From positions 5,659,001 through 5,723,000 of the forward strand of contig NZ_JARUBM010000002.1 in assembly GCF_029626175.1 (NCBI RefSeq): 64,000 bases of DNA. The letters are read 5' to 3'. The position numbers and the translations under genes are program-made. The stretch is from Micromonospora sp. WMMD1082 (GTDB lineage Bacteria > Actinomycetota > Actinomycetes > Mycobacteriales > Micromonosporaceae). The notes beneath the pieces were generated by a model, which saw only the letters and a list, made by a program, of their open reading frames with translations, did no database searches and was not told the origin of the DNA. Of this stretch, positions 1,726 to 5,519 are shown piece after piece. Positions within the stretch are counted from its first letter, which is position 1. Each line of letters starts with the position of its first letter.

Positions 1726-1875
1726 GTGAACCACCTGGCCTACCTGGACGCGGGATCCGGCAGCCTGATCGTGCAGGCGGTGGTCGGCGGGATCGCCGGC
1801 GTCGCGGTGGCGGCCAAGCTCTACTGGCGCAGACTCGTCAGCCGGTTCCGCCGCCAGCCCACCGACCAGAGCTGA
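1726..1875 (+). CDS. 49-residue conserved membrane protein with LDAGSGS motif
   Basis: Short ORF beginning GTG at 1726, eight bases after a strong AAGGAG Shine-Dalgarno. It encodes a LAYLDAGSGSLIVQAVVGG motif followed by a single hydrophobic helix (AVVGGIAGVAVAAKLYW) and a basic tail (RRLVSRFRRQ). Small proteins with a YLDPGTGS-type motif and one membrane helix are a recurring actinobacterial family, often found beside methyltransferase and sulfatase-like genes as here. The function is not established. It ends 9 bases before the methyltransferase start and is almost certainly co-transcribed with it. I infer an inner-membrane partner of the next two gene products. Confidence 0.82.
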   Translation: MNHLAYLDAGSGSLIVQAVVGGIAGVAVAAKLYWRRLVSRFRRQPTDQS

Positions 1876-1884
1876 CCGCCCGCG

Positions 1885-3453
1885 ATGACGATCCCGGACC
1901 TGGGCCGGTCACCGCGACCTGCCTCGCCCGGCACCGACCCACGCCCAGAGCCCGGCGCCGATCCGCGCCCGAAGCCCGGCACCGACCCACGCGCAGAGCC
2001 GGGCGCCGATGCGCGCCCGGAGTCCGGCGCCGACCCGCGCCCGGAGCCGGGCTCGTTCCGTGACCCGGCGAACCGGGTGTTCCACGCTGGCGATGACGTG
2101 CTGCGCGCGCTCGACCAGACGGCCGCGGCACAGTGGCGCGCCCTGGCGGGAAGCAGCTTCTTCCCGCCGCTGCTCGCCGCCGGCAAGGTCTGCGGCACCG
2201 AGGAGCTGCCGGGACCGGCGCGGCACGAGCTGCCGGCGGGTCCGGCCCCGTCGGGCTGGGCGGCGGTGCTGCGCCACGAACGCGTCCCGTTCATCTCGCA
2301 CCCGTACGAGTGGTCCTTCGCCATGCTGCGCGACGCCGCGCTGCTGCACCTGGAGATCCTCCGGGCGGCCCTGCCGGCGGGCTTCACCACCAAGGACGGC
2401 TCGGCGTACAACCTCCAGTGGCGTGGCACCGAGCCGGTCTTCATCGACGTCGGGTCCTTCACCCCGCTGCGCGACGGTGAGCCGTGGGCCGGCTACCGGC
2501 AGTTCTGCCAGACGTTGCTCTACCCGCTGATGCTCGGCGCCCATCTGGGGCTGGCGTTCCAGCCCTGGCTGCGCGCACAGGTCGACGGCATCGAGCCGGA
2601 CCAGATGGGCCCGCTGTTCAAGGGCGTGCGCCGGCTGCTGCCCGGCGTGCTCACCCACGTCCATCTGCACGGCAGCGTGCAGCGACGCAACGCCGCGACC
2701 AGCACCGCCGACGTGCGCGCGCAGCTGCGGGCCGCCGGCTACACCCGCGAGCTGGCGCTGGCCACCGTACGCGGGATGGAGAAGCTGGTCCGGCGCCTGG
2801 AGCATCAGTCACCGCCCACCCACTGGGTCGACTACCAACAGACCTGCGGCTACTCCGGCGACGACCGGGCGGGCAAGGAGCGGTTCGTCACCGCCGCGCT
2901 GGCCGCCGCCGGCCGGCGGCGGCTGGTGCTCGACCTGGGCGCCAACGACGGACGGTACGCCCGCCTCGCCGCCCGGCACGCCGACTACGTGGTCGCCGTC
3001 GAGCAGGACCCGGCGGTGGTCGACCGGCTGTACCGCACCCTGCGGGGCGAGGCGGAACGGCGGGTGCTGCCGCTGGTGATGGACCTGGCCGACCCGTCCC
3101 CCGGCGGCGGCTGGCGCGGTGTCGAGCGGGCCTCGTTCGCCACCCGGGCCAGCGCGGACACGGTGCTCGCCCTGGCGCTGGTGCACCACCTGGCGATCGG
3201 CCGCAACGTGCCGCTGCCGGAGGTGGTGGCCTGCCTCGCCGGCTTCGTCGCGCCTGGCGGCCGGCTGGTGGTGGAGTTCGTCCACCCGGACGACCCGATG
3301 GCCGCCCGGCTGCTGGCCAACAAGCCCGACGGCATCTTCCCCGACTACCGGCGGGACGCCTTCGAGGCGCTGCTCGCCGCCACGGGCACCGTCCAGGACC
3401 GGCTGGAGCTGCCCTCGGGCACCCGGACCCTGTACCGGGTGGTCATTCCGTGA
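1885..3453 (+). CDS. Class I SAM-dependent methyltransferase with repetitive N-terminus
   Basis: 522 residues. Residues about 16-55 form five copies of a Pro/Asp-rich octapeptide (GxDPRPEP type), unlike the rest. A conserved region follows (RALDQTAAAQWRALAGSSFF and the segment up to residue 330), and then a Rossmann methyltransferase domain with motif I LDLGANDG at residues 349-356 and an acidic VVAVEQDP loop that binds the ribose of SAM. The acceptor is unknown. It belongs to a family annotated simply as class I SAM-dependent methyltransferase. The gene sits between a small membrane protein and a sulfatase-like membrane enzyme; its TGA overlaps the next GTG (GTGA), indicating translational coupling. 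ATG at 1885 is used, but a later start after the repeats is possible. Confidence 0.85.
   Translation: MTIPDLGRSPRPASPGTDPRPEPGADPRPKPGTDPRAEPGADARPESGADPRPEPGSFRDPANRVFHAGDDVLRALDQTAAAQWRALAGSSFFPPLLAAGKVCGTEELPGPARHELPAGPAPSGWAAVLRHERVPFISHPYEWSFAMLRDAALLHLEILRAALPAGFTTKDGSAYNLQWRGTEPVFIDVGSFTPLRDGEPWAGYRQFCQTLLYPLMLGAHLGLAFQPWLRAQVDGIEPDQMGPLFKGVRRLLPGVLTHVHLHGSVQRRNAATSTADVRAQLRAAGYTRELALATVRGMEKLVRRLEHQSPPTHWVDYQQTCGYSGDDRAGKERFVTAALAAAGRRRLVLDLGANDGRYARLAARHADYVVAVEQDPAVVDRLYRTLRGEAERRVLPLVMDLADPSPGGGWRGVERASFATRASADTVLALALVHHLAIGRNVPLPEVVACLAGFVAPGGRLVVEFVHPDDPMAARLLANKPDGIFPDYRRDAFEALLAATGTVQDRLELPSGTRTLYRVVIP
1930..2049 (+). repeat. Five in-frame 24-bp tandem repeats
   Basis: Within the methyltransferase gene, five consecutive 24-base units encode variants of G-(T/A)-D-P-R-P-E-P. 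The units are diverged at several positions but keep the period exactly, so the reading frame is preserved. Such runs vary in copy number by slippage or recombination and usually code for a flexible, unfolded linker. Confidence 0.9.
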
Positions 3454-5519
3454 CCGAGCTGCCCACCGCCGATCCCGGCGCGGCCGTCGACGAAACGGAC
3501 CGTCGAGGCCGGTGGCGGTGGCGGTGGGCGTGGGGGTGGGGCGGCTGGCGGACCGAGGCCGGCCGGCTGCTGGAGGTCACCGCGCTGGTCGGGCTGGTGA
3601 TCACCCAGCCGTTGCTGGACATCCTCGGTCGCAGCCCGGACTTCTTCCTGTTCCACCGAGCCGACCGGGGCGAGATCCTGCTGCTGGTGGCCCTGGTCGC
3701 GGTGCTGCCGACGGCGGCACTCGGCCTGGTCGGCCTGCTCGCCGGCCTCCCCGGGCGGGCGGTCCGGACGGTCACCCACAGCCTGACCCTGGGCCTGCTG
3801 GCGGCCGCGCTGGCGGTGCAGGTCGGCCGGCACACCACGCCGCTGCGGGGCGTACCGCTGCTGCTGGTGGCCGGGGTGGTCGGTGCCGCCGGGATCGCCG
3901 CGGACCGGCGGTGGCGGGCCCCGGGCCGGGTGCTGCGCCTGGCCGCCGCCGGACCGCTGGTCTTCGTCGGGCTGTTCCTGTTCGCCTCGCCGACCGGTCC
4001 CGTGGTGCTGCCGCGCGGCGACGGCGGCGTGGCCGGTACGGCCACCGGAAGCCTGCACCCGCCGGTGGTCATGCTGATCCTGGACGAGCTTCCGCTGGTC
4101 TCCCTGCTCGATCGGGCGGGTGCCGTCGACGCCGACCGGTTCCCGCACTTCGCCGAGCTGGCGGCCGCCTCGACCTGGTACCGCAACGCGACCGGCGTGA
4201 GCGGTTGGACGCCGTACGCGTTGCCGGCGATGCTGACCGGCCGCTACCCGGCGGAGCCGTTCGCCCCGCACTACTCGCACTACCCGGACAACCTCTTCAC
4301 CGCCCTCGGCGGGCTGTACGACATCCGCGCCGAGGAGAGCATCACCCGGCTCTGCCCGCCGAGCCGCTGCGAGCAGCCGGTCACCCCGGAGCAGGGCATG
4401 GGGGTGCTGGCCCGCGAGACGGGCCGGCTGCTGCGCCAGGTGACCGCGCCGCACGACAGCCGGATCGATCCGGAGGACTCCTACCGCGAGCAAACCGCCG
4501 AGGAGGCCGGCATTGACGCCGCCGAGCCGGTGCCGACCGATCCGAAGTTCCGCTGGGACAGCCTCAACGTCAACCAGCCGGCCCGGTTCACCAGCTTCCT
4601 CAACGGCCTGACCCCGTCGCAGCGGCCGACGCTGCACTTCCTGCACCTGCTGATGCCGCACTCGCCGTGGGCGTACCTGCCGTCGGGGGCGCGCTACGAG
4701 GCGCCGGAGGACTTCCCCAACGAGGGCGACGGCTGGGTGGACCTGGCCCGCGCCCGTCACCTCGCCCAGCTCGGCTACACCGACCGGCTGATCGGCGAGA
4801 CGATGCGTACGCTGCGGGCCACCGGCCTGTGGGACCAGGCGCTCGTGGTGGTCACCGCCGACCACGGGGTCAGCTTCACCAAGGGCGTGCAGGGGCGCGG
4901 CGAGGATGCCATCCGGGCCGCCGCCGACCAGGTCGCCTGGGTGCCGCTGTTCGTCAAGACGCCGGGTCAACGCAGCGGGCAGATCGACGACCGCAACTGG
5001 GAACACGTCGACCTGCTGCCGACCATCGCCGACGAGGCGGCCATCCGGCTGCCCTGGCGGGTCGACGGCAGCTCCGCCCGGCAGGCACCCCGTACCAACG
5101 CCGGCAAGGTCTTCTACGACCGTCCGTCGCAACCGATGCCGATCACCGGCGGCGTGCCCGCCGCGCCGCCACCGGCGGCCCCGCATCCGCTGGTCGGCAC
5201 CACCGTGGGCGACGCGCCGCCCGGTGGCGACGCCCGGGTCGGCGGGCTGGACGCCTTCCGCCACGTCGATCCCGACGAGGGCCTGCTGCCCGGCATGATC
5301 TGGGGCACCGTGCCCGACCAGGTCGCCGACGGCACCGAGCTGGCGGTGGCCGTCAACGGCACCGTCGCGGCGGTGGTGCCGGTGGTCGCCCCGGACCCGG
5401 GCGGCCGGCGCTTCGCCGCGCTGCTCGCCGACGACCGGCTCTTCCACGCCGGCGCCAACCGGCTCGACCTGTACCTGGTCGAGGCCGGCGGCGGCCTGCG
5501 CCACCTGACGATCTCCTGA
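3450..5519 (+). CDS. Membrane-anchored sulfatase-like (alkaline-phosphatase superfamily) enzyme
   Basis: 689 residues. After a Trp/Arg-rich leader, about five hydrophobic segments (residues ~40-205) precede a large exported alkaline-phosphatase-superfamily domain. Metal and nucleophile signatures are visible: D212 in VVMLILDELP, the candidate nucleophile T254 in SGWTPYALPAMLTGRYP, and D471-H472 in VVVTADHGVSF. A Thr in place of the Cys/Ser that matures to formylglycine argues for a phospho-group or phospho-alditol transferase-type reaction (compare LTA synthase and phosphoethanolamine transferases) rather than a classical sulfatase. GTG at 3450 overlaps the upstream stop, so it is coupled to the methyltransferase. 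I infer envelope glycopolymer or lipid modification; the substrate is unknown. Confidence 0.85.
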   Translation: MTELPTADPGAAVDETDRRGRWRWRWAWGWGGWRTEAGRLLEVTALVGLVITQPLLDILGRSPDFFLFHRADRGEILLLVALVAVLPTAALGLVGLLAGLPGRAVRTVTHSLTLGLLAAALAVQVGRHTTPLRGVPLLLVAGVVGAAGIAADRRWRAPGRVLRLAAAGPLVFVGLFLFASPTGPVVLPRGDGGVAGTATGSLHPPVVMLILDELPLVSLLDRAGAVDADRFPHFAELAAASTWYRNATGVSGWTPYALPAMLTGRYPAEPFAPHYSHYPDNLFTALGGLYDIRAEESITRLCPPSRCEQPVTPEQGMGVLARETGRLLRQVTAPHDSRIDPEDSYREQTAEEAGIDAAEPVPTDPKFRWDSLNVNQPARFTSFLNGLTPSQRPTLHFLHLLMPHSPWAYLPSGARYEAPEDFPNEGDGWVDLARARHLAQLGYTDRLIGETMRTLRATGLWDQALVVVTADHGVSFTKGVQGRGEDAIRAAADQVAWVPLFVKTPGQRSGQIDDRNWEHVDLLPTIADEAAIRLPWRVDGSSARQAPRTNAGKVFYDRPSQPMPITGGVPAAPPPAAPHPLVGTTVGDAPPGGDARVGGLDAFRHVDPDEGLLPGMIWGTVPDQVADGTELAVAVNGTVAAVVPVVAPDPGGRRFAALLADDRLFHAGANRLDLYLVEAGGGLRHLTIS

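Follow-up and report, generated by a model that had tools for sequence, protein, structure and literature searches.

A NoeA/NoeB-type gene trio of Micromonospora that may place a phosphate-containing tag on cell-surface molecules

What do a tiny membrane protein, a methyltransferase and a sulfatase-like membrane enzyme do together when their genes stand end to end on a bacterial chromosome? Such a trio occupies positions 1726 to 5519 of a 64,000-nucleotide stretch of Micromonospora sp. WMMD1082 (hereafter, the window), and an initial annotation, made from the letters alone, had taken the three genes for one system that adds an acidic or phosphate group and a methyl group to a surface glycan or lipid. 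Here we propose that the locus is a NoeA/NoeB-type module, in which phosphorylation and methylation in the cytosol, of the kind known from WbdD, would be coupled to a Thr-nucleophile enzyme on the outer face of the membrane. We give this reading a probability of roughly 0.5. The trio may put a phosphate-containing tag on cell-surface molecules.

Re-reading of the sequence bore out the coordinates of the three open reading frames (ORFs), the 9 bp between the small ORF and gene 2, the GTGA at 3450-3453 in which genes 2 and 3 overlap, and the position of Thr254. The features of the locus are as follows.

1726 to 1875, + strand: small membrane protein of 49 amino acids with a GTG start, AAGGAG upstream and the motif YLDAGSGS.
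1885 to 3453, + strand: gene 2 (whole gene), NoeA-type kinase-methyltransferase of 522 amino acids, matching NoeA at 33.8% identity.
1926 to 2052, + strand: leader rich in P, G, D and R, encoded at the 5' end of gene 2 by a 24/48-bp tandem repeat.
2044 to 2850, + strand: kinase-like N-terminal domain of gene 2, residues 54-322 as aligned in alignment A2, with a RIO kinase profile match.
2392 to 2460, + strand: KDGSAYN...FIDVGSF, residues 170-192, candidate catalytic loop and DFG-like motif with D171, N176 and D188.
2854 to 3450, + strand: class I S-adenosylmethionine-dependent methyltransferase domain of gene 2, motif I DLGANDG at residues 350-356, matching Methyltransf_23/_12 below cut-off.
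3450 to 5519, + strand: gene 3, NoeB-type membrane enzyme of 689 amino acids with an alkaline-phosphatase (AP)/sulfatase fold (PF00884, E 1e-18).
4209 to 4211, + strand: Thr254 in SGWTPYA, predicted nucleophile of gene 3, at the nucleophile column of the AP-fold alignments.
4353 to 4370, + strand: CPPSRC, residues 302-307, a formylglycine-like string within a Cys pair, judged a look-alike.

The kinship of the locus was most readily recognised from gene 2. When plasmids were searched by tblastn, its residues 54-522 matched Sinorhizobium NoeA with 33.8% identity over 99% coverage (E 1e-54), and 57 of the 65 records returned were named Sinorhizobium; judged by sequence, gene 2 is related to NoeA over its full length. 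Its best homologues are Verrucosispora and Micromonospora proteins, and its own genome holds a single match. Most of the 120 homologues listed cover about 90% of the query and are devoid of the leader, and translation of gene 2 may in truth begin at a later codon. On pSymA of strain ml46 the gene order is nodL, a 71-residue hypothetical protein, noeA and noeB. The 71-residue protein (L068:5748-5963) carries PAHA-YLDPGTGS, a hydrophobic stretch and YWNKIR, features of the same family as the small protein of the window. Because it belongs to that family, the trio, in order, sits within a genetically studied operon, of which the 71-residue protein may be a further gene. The genetic phenotype of noeA and noeB, in the nodL-noeA-noeB host-range nodulation operon of Sinorhizobium meliloti, was reportedly described by Ardourel in 1995.

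The initial annotation had called gene 2 a methyltransferase. This holds for the C-terminal half, which in Pfam matched Methyltransf_23 (E 2.3e-5) and Methyltransf_12 (E 2.9e-5) below cut-off, with the best stretch at 333-501, and in NCBIfam likewise gave a class I methyltransferase below cut-off, but not for the first half, where residues ~57-320 form a separate kinase-like part that had been missed. Anti-phage defence was considered and rejected, as PADLOC yielded only a match of the methyltransferase region to mads_2 (E 1.9e-7).

The ~270 residues preceding the methyltransferase gave no above-cut-off match in Pfam or NCBIfam. D171, N176 and D188 in this part are invariant in A1 (16 whole proteins) and in A2 (31 N-terminal domains), alignments which, like A3 (35 small proteins) and A4 (19 gene 3 proteins), took part of the sequences. 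The spacing of these residues in KDGSAYN...FIDVGSF is that of a kinase catalytic loop followed by a DFG aspartate. We compared a profile of the N-terminal domain (45 of 105 sequences, 42 after filtering) with profiles of RIO (7 sequences), APH (14 of 23) and ABC1 (14) kinases. It matched the RIO profile with probabilities of 70.4 and 75.5% (p 3.9e-5 and 2.4e-5) in the two directions, aligning the D-N-D of gene 2 with that of the RIO kinase loop, which reads H-A-DLSPYN...VID in L152. The best of 40 column shuffles reached p 0.086, the reversed profile p 0.36, and nine neighbour-cluster controls, of at most 25 sequences per cluster, p 0.16 or worse (0.21 to 0.71). When the 31 members were scanned against Pfam, RIO1 was the sole family to match more than one of them (three, sub-threshold), and the sole NCBIfam match to this domain in the window protein was a phosphotransferase (E 0.071, sub-threshold). 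These sequence comparisons point to a kinase-like domain in the first half of gene 2, with D171, N176 and D188 as candidate catalytic residues.

Several results of the same comparisons pull the other way. The RIO match spans 43 and 32 columns in the two directions, restricted to the region round the catalytic loop, and the methyltransferase-domain control itself reached p 0.015 against RIO in a domain-edge match. True kinase pairs gave higher probabilities (RIO-APH 82.5, APH-ABC1 91.7 and RIO-ABC1 94.3%), while the N-terminal domain matched the APH and ABC1 profiles at p 0.071 and 0.029, respectively. The best RIO1 match among the 31 members had E 0.056 and did not reach the curated kinase cut-off. 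Searched against the PDB with E values allowed up to 10, A2 returned no kinase and one irrelevant match; with gene 2 alone, the best PDB matches were look-alikes of the leader repeat. The kinase-methyltransferase presumably sits in the cytosol, although one hydrophobic 19-mer occurs in 22 of 119 such proteins, from a cross-phyla set of 118 loci plus the window.

Gene 3 carries seven flagged hydrophobic segments. Five of them (40-56 to 160-182) are N-terminal, before the catalytic domain, and are read as five membrane helices. Of the other two, 204-221 covers the strand of the catalytic domain that bears D212, and 630-648 is found close to the end of that domain. In the first 200 residues of 44 relatives, five hydrophobic segments were found in 20, four in 17 and fewer in 7. 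D212, T254, H399, H404 and D471 are invariant in A4, and H472 nearly so. Thr254, which the initial annotation took for the apparent nucleophile, sits at a column where, of 74 AP-fold proteins from neighbouring genes, 63 have Thr, 11 Ser and none Cys, and where Thr occupies 19/19 of A4, so that the prediction stands. Of the same 74 proteins, 71 have Asp at the D212 column, and at the H472 column 57 have His and 13 Glu. A formylglycine motif elsewhere in a sulfatase-like protein that acts alone had been named as grounds for giving up the proposal. This objection applies in part, as a CxPSR string, CPPSR, is present at 302-306, but it lies away from the nucleophile column and is not conserved: its Cys pair is kept in 20/20 family loci, the exact CPPSR in 10/20, and CxPxR in 2 of the 74 neighbours, namely the window and a same-genus genome. 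These residues speak for a phosphate enzyme with a Thr nucleophile rather than for a formylglycine sulfatase. A search of plasmids for the AP fold gave 13 records, all of them short matches.

Such an enzyme might transfer or hydrolyse. The best NCBIfam match of gene 3 was choline-sulfatase, far below cut-off, and the LtaS family cut-off was missed as well (21.6 bits against 970). Against the PDB, gene 3 alone matched best a phosphonate monoester hydrolase and choline sulfatase, with weak matches to LtaS and lipoteichoic acid (LTA) primase chains; sulfatases made up 14 of 15 matches of the family profile, with one YhbX/YhjW/YijP/YjdB-family chain among its weak matches. Top matches to sulfatases and not to transferases speak against a transferase. 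Gene 3 could instead be a phosphodiesterase or phosphatase that trims the group put on by gene 2, the trio then toggling a modification on and off instead of assembling it in two stages; its nearest sequences are hydrolases. The five hydrophobic segments before the catalytic domain (four or five in 37/44 relatives) recall the lipid-using transferases LtaS and EptA, however, and LtaS, LTA primase and YhbX/YhjW/YijP/YjdB-family chains do occur among the weak matches; we hold a trimming hydrolase to be possible, if doubtful. The LTA synthase LtaS and the phosphoethanolamine transferase EptA have an AP fold, a Thr nucleophile and N-terminal hydrophobic segments. Gene 3 resembles them in its AP-fold metal ligands, its candidate Thr nucleophile and its N-terminal segments, whereas the sequence match is weak.

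The small protein of the window consists of the motif YLDAGSGS, one hydrophobic segment and a basic tail. Its likely topology, by prediction, has the motif and N-terminus outside, one helix, and the basic C-terminal tail inside. Among 91 members, the window included, Y1 and D3 are kept in all 91, S8 and Q12 in 90 each, G7 in 88, W29 in 78 and P4, replaced by Ala in the window, in 77. The pattern used to collect the members required G5, the conservation of which is thus uninformative, and permitted Y/F/H at position 1 and D/E at position 3. The residue before the motif (-1) is Ala in 67/91 and that at -3 is Ala in 40/91, and a hydrophobic stretch runs ahead of the motif in 59/91; the Micromonospora protein is without this signal-peptide-like part. 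A literature search for the literal string YLDPGSGS, the only search aimed at the small protein, gave no match.

Co-occurrence across actinobacterial genomes, the check proposed with the initial annotation, tied this protein to gene 2. With the A3 family profile, the small protein was found in 30 of 296 actinobacterial genomes, all of them among the 33 with a strong kinase-methyltransferase match (E below 1e-50), and in 0 of the 263 others (Fisher p 4.8e-38); the scans scored a limited number of first-look candidates per genome. Eight weaker or partial matches were dropped, among them G035, which may hold a distant relative of the kinase-methyltransferase. The two genes adjoin in 29 of the 33 genomes, as counted by hand from coordinates. 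As for the other four, upstream DNA is lacking in G183, the copy of G218 sits on a separate contig, and the profile found none in G016 and G208. Unlinked copies occur in G013, G025, G028 and G177 in addition to the linked one, and G218 has an unlinked copy only. The A3 profile found copies that the pattern had missed, so cross-phyla counts of the small protein are lower bounds.

Such conservation (Y1 and D3 in 91/91, S8 and Q12 in 90/91) goes beyond what anchoring in a membrane should call for, and together with the co-occurrence it raises the question whether the small protein is itself the substrate of the kinase-methyltransferase or the AP-fold enzyme, the trio being a protein-tagging system. 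Ala at -1 and the preceding hydrophobic stretch would fit, as they suggest that many relatives have an N-terminus that is processed and exposed. However, prediction places the motif outside, whereas the kinase-methyltransferase is presumably cytosolic, and five genomes carry unlinked copies. We know of no precedent for the trio in this role and consider it unlikely.

The view that the three genes belong together was upheld by their order as well. Strong kinase-methyltransferase matches were found in 46 of 150 genomes of the family sample, and the full trio was present in 20/20 Micromonosporaceae loci fetched from these 46. The start of gene 3 overlaps the stop of gene 2 in 13 of 14 scorable loci, the window included (21 loci were given, 7 being left unscored by the motif filter); the overlap is 8 bp in 12/13 relatives and 4 bp in the window. 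At least 16 same-genus genomes with the kinase-methyltransferase were seen among the matches listed, and none among the no-match genomes listed. The cross-phyla set draws in part on the best 80 of at least 564 confirmed relatives (at least 591 stretches), ranked by likeness to a Singulisphaera sequence, and these loci therefore lean to that clade. In the cross-phyla set the small protein was found upstream in 89 of the 112 loci having 400 bp upstream, and of the 101 having 1500 bp downstream, 65 carry an AP-fold gene no more than 3 kb away on that side. Both flanks were available for 94 loci, and 46 of these, among them the window and two pSymA records, have the ordered trio: 13/28 actinobacterial loci, 28/60 from the named-genome scan, 4/5 plasmid loci and the window. 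The whole source genome holds two PF00884 matches, and therefore an AP-fold gene adjoining gene 2 cannot be put down to background. In loci L037, L051, L114, L125 and L127 the kinase-methyltransferase is followed by two AP-fold frames.

Recurring neighbour clusters, counted without a background control, included glycosyltransferase 2 (13 loci), a sugar epimerase (10) and a hexapeptide transferase (5); topoisomerase and GreA were also among those identified. Ten clusters were identified, by one representative each, and beyond gene 2, the AP-fold clusters and one artefact (cluster 5, antisense gene 2 frames) none exceeded 13 loci. An envelope function in the form we propose is disfavoured by several features of these surroundings. 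An FHA-ABC transporter (12 loci) recurs as often as the glycan genes; no AP-fold gene was found within 3 kb downstream in 36/101 loci, and one lies upstream instead in 12/119. The neighbours of the trio in the window are glyoxalase and citrate synthase, non-glycan genes, and a surrounding glycan gene cluster was rejected on these grounds.

Could the three genes be merely co-transcribed, without a joint function? The ordered trio is indeed absent from 48 of the 94 loci. Yet distant phyla and pSymA share the order, genes 2 and 3 overlap in the family, and all 30 genomes with the small protein have the kinase-methyltransferase. This makes a lack of joint function very unlikely, and chance neighbourhood is rejected on the order across phyla, the 20/20 Micromonosporaceae loci and the co-occurrence statistics. 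Least probable of all is a formylglycine sulfatase with unrelated neighbours, which the PF00884 match, the sulfatases among the top matches and CPPSR at 302-306 might suggest, but which we reject on the Thr/Ser nucleophile column (74/74) and the displaced, unconserved CPPSR (CxPxR in 2/74, exact CPPSR in 10/20 family loci), the conserved order and co-occurrence also speaking against unrelated neighbours.

Upstream of the trio, a 58-61 bp palindrome (TTGATCATGARGTT ... AACYTCATGATCAA) is present at 250-308 and 1053-1111. It has 49 copies in the source genome, in two core subtypes, against 0 for a reversed control pattern, and looks like a dispersed hairpin repeat.

The initial annotation knew of no characterised system with this composition. 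NoeA/NoeB and the pair Lani_1194/1195 (PMC9758233, cited here and below in part) are of the same families, and its guess that the trio was perhaps already catalogued proved right as far as the kinase-methyltransferase family and its NoeB-type neighbour are concerned. In that 2022 survey Lani_1194 is a NoeA homologue, read as a kinase-methyltransferase from sequence and an AlphaFold model and presented as a putative effector; the same reading was reached independently here. Lani_1194/1195 resemble the trio in their putative kinase and methyltransferase domains and in the NoeB-like AP-fold neighbour Lani_1195, and Micromonosporales are the most numerous group of the family. The family, the neighbour and this abundance are thus already in print. 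The small protein is not described in section 8 of the survey. Lani_1193 occurs in 65% of 816 neighbourhoods, its identity not being given in the main text as cited; it may be the small YLDxG protein. What is added here is the co-occurrence of the small protein with the kinase-methyltransferase and the order nodL, small protein, noeA, noeB.

In the parts cited of PMC9048898, PMC10945364 and PMC4053727, noeA and noeB are required for or involved in nodulating particular Medicago species, and their role in Nod factor modification is a hypothesis. Those parts, like those of PMC9758233, give no chemical product for NoeA/NoeB, which counts against our proposal. The resemblance to the window lies in the full-length homology of gene 2, the small-family protein before noeA, the AP-fold NoeB after it and the Thr at the nucleophile column of NoeB. 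The window differs in lineage, in having no adjoining nodL and no symbiosis context, and in the sequence of gene 3, which shares 18% identity with NoeB in A4.

A working analogy for gene 2 is WbdD, the chain terminator of the E. coli O9a O-antigen, which phosphorylates the terminal mannose and then methylates the phosphate (PMC3482155, in the parts cited). Klebsiella O7 ORF6, likewise a kinase-methyltransferase studied by biochemistry, transfers phosphate and a methyl group onto a mimic of the repeat unit, and its kinase domain is unrecognisable by sequence (PMC11231755, in the parts cited). Gene 2 resembles both in joining a kinase-like domain and a methyltransferase in one protein, and a PDB profile search with its family gave six weak matches, two of them to WbdD chains (E 0.041 and 0.07). 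However, WbdD runs from methyltransferase to kinase to a coiled coil with polymerase docking, whereas in gene 2 the domain order is reversed and the protein ends at the methyltransferase, with no trailing sequence for a WbdD-type coiled coil or docking (no coiled-coil predictor was run). By its sequence gene 2 is not a WbdD; it would work like one without being a member.

The families, conserved candidate catalytic residues, gene order, co-occurrence and predicted topology of the NoeA/NoeB-type module were computed; from them we infer its chemical steps, their order, the substrate and any physical complex. The kinase-like half of gene 2 would phosphorylate a hydroxyl on a membrane-borne glycan or lipid in the cytosol, and the methyltransferase half would next methylate the product, most likely at the new phosphate, as in WbdD. 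By analogy with WbdD and ORF6, which act on glycans, the product is most likely a phosphorylated, methylated membrane-borne glycan or lipid. The small protein would cross the membrane, its conserved YLDxG[ST]GS end facing out and its basic tail facing in, and would hold or recruit the kinase-methyltransferase to its working site. The outer AP-fold domain of gene 3 would move a phosphate-containing group between lipid and glycan via Thr254. As to the phosphate or acidic group and the methyl group first proposed, an envelope or secreted-glycan role remains most likely for the trio, but the phosphate may come from gene 2. A more daring extension, which we regard as speculative and somewhat improbable, is a transmembrane relay common to distant bacteria, in which the kinase-methyltransferase would make a methyl-phosphate ester on a carrier in the cytosol, the YLDxG[ST]GS protein present it across the membrane, and the Thr enzyme transfer methyl-phosphate to surface glycans. 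If this were true, the host range governed by noeA/noeB would come down to a surface methyl-phosphate tag, and the small protein would be a dedicated partner of the kinase-methyltransferase.

The description of noeA and noeB as host-range genes goes back to 1995, a date taken from reference lists. The old question of what they do is now tied to a kinase-methyltransferase found across many phyla, to a membrane enzyme of the Thr type and to a tiny membrane protein with hardly any variation, and it becomes the question of which envelope molecule might receive phosphate and methyl groups from such a module. Micromonospora offers a non-symbiotic model for the NoeA/NoeB-type module.

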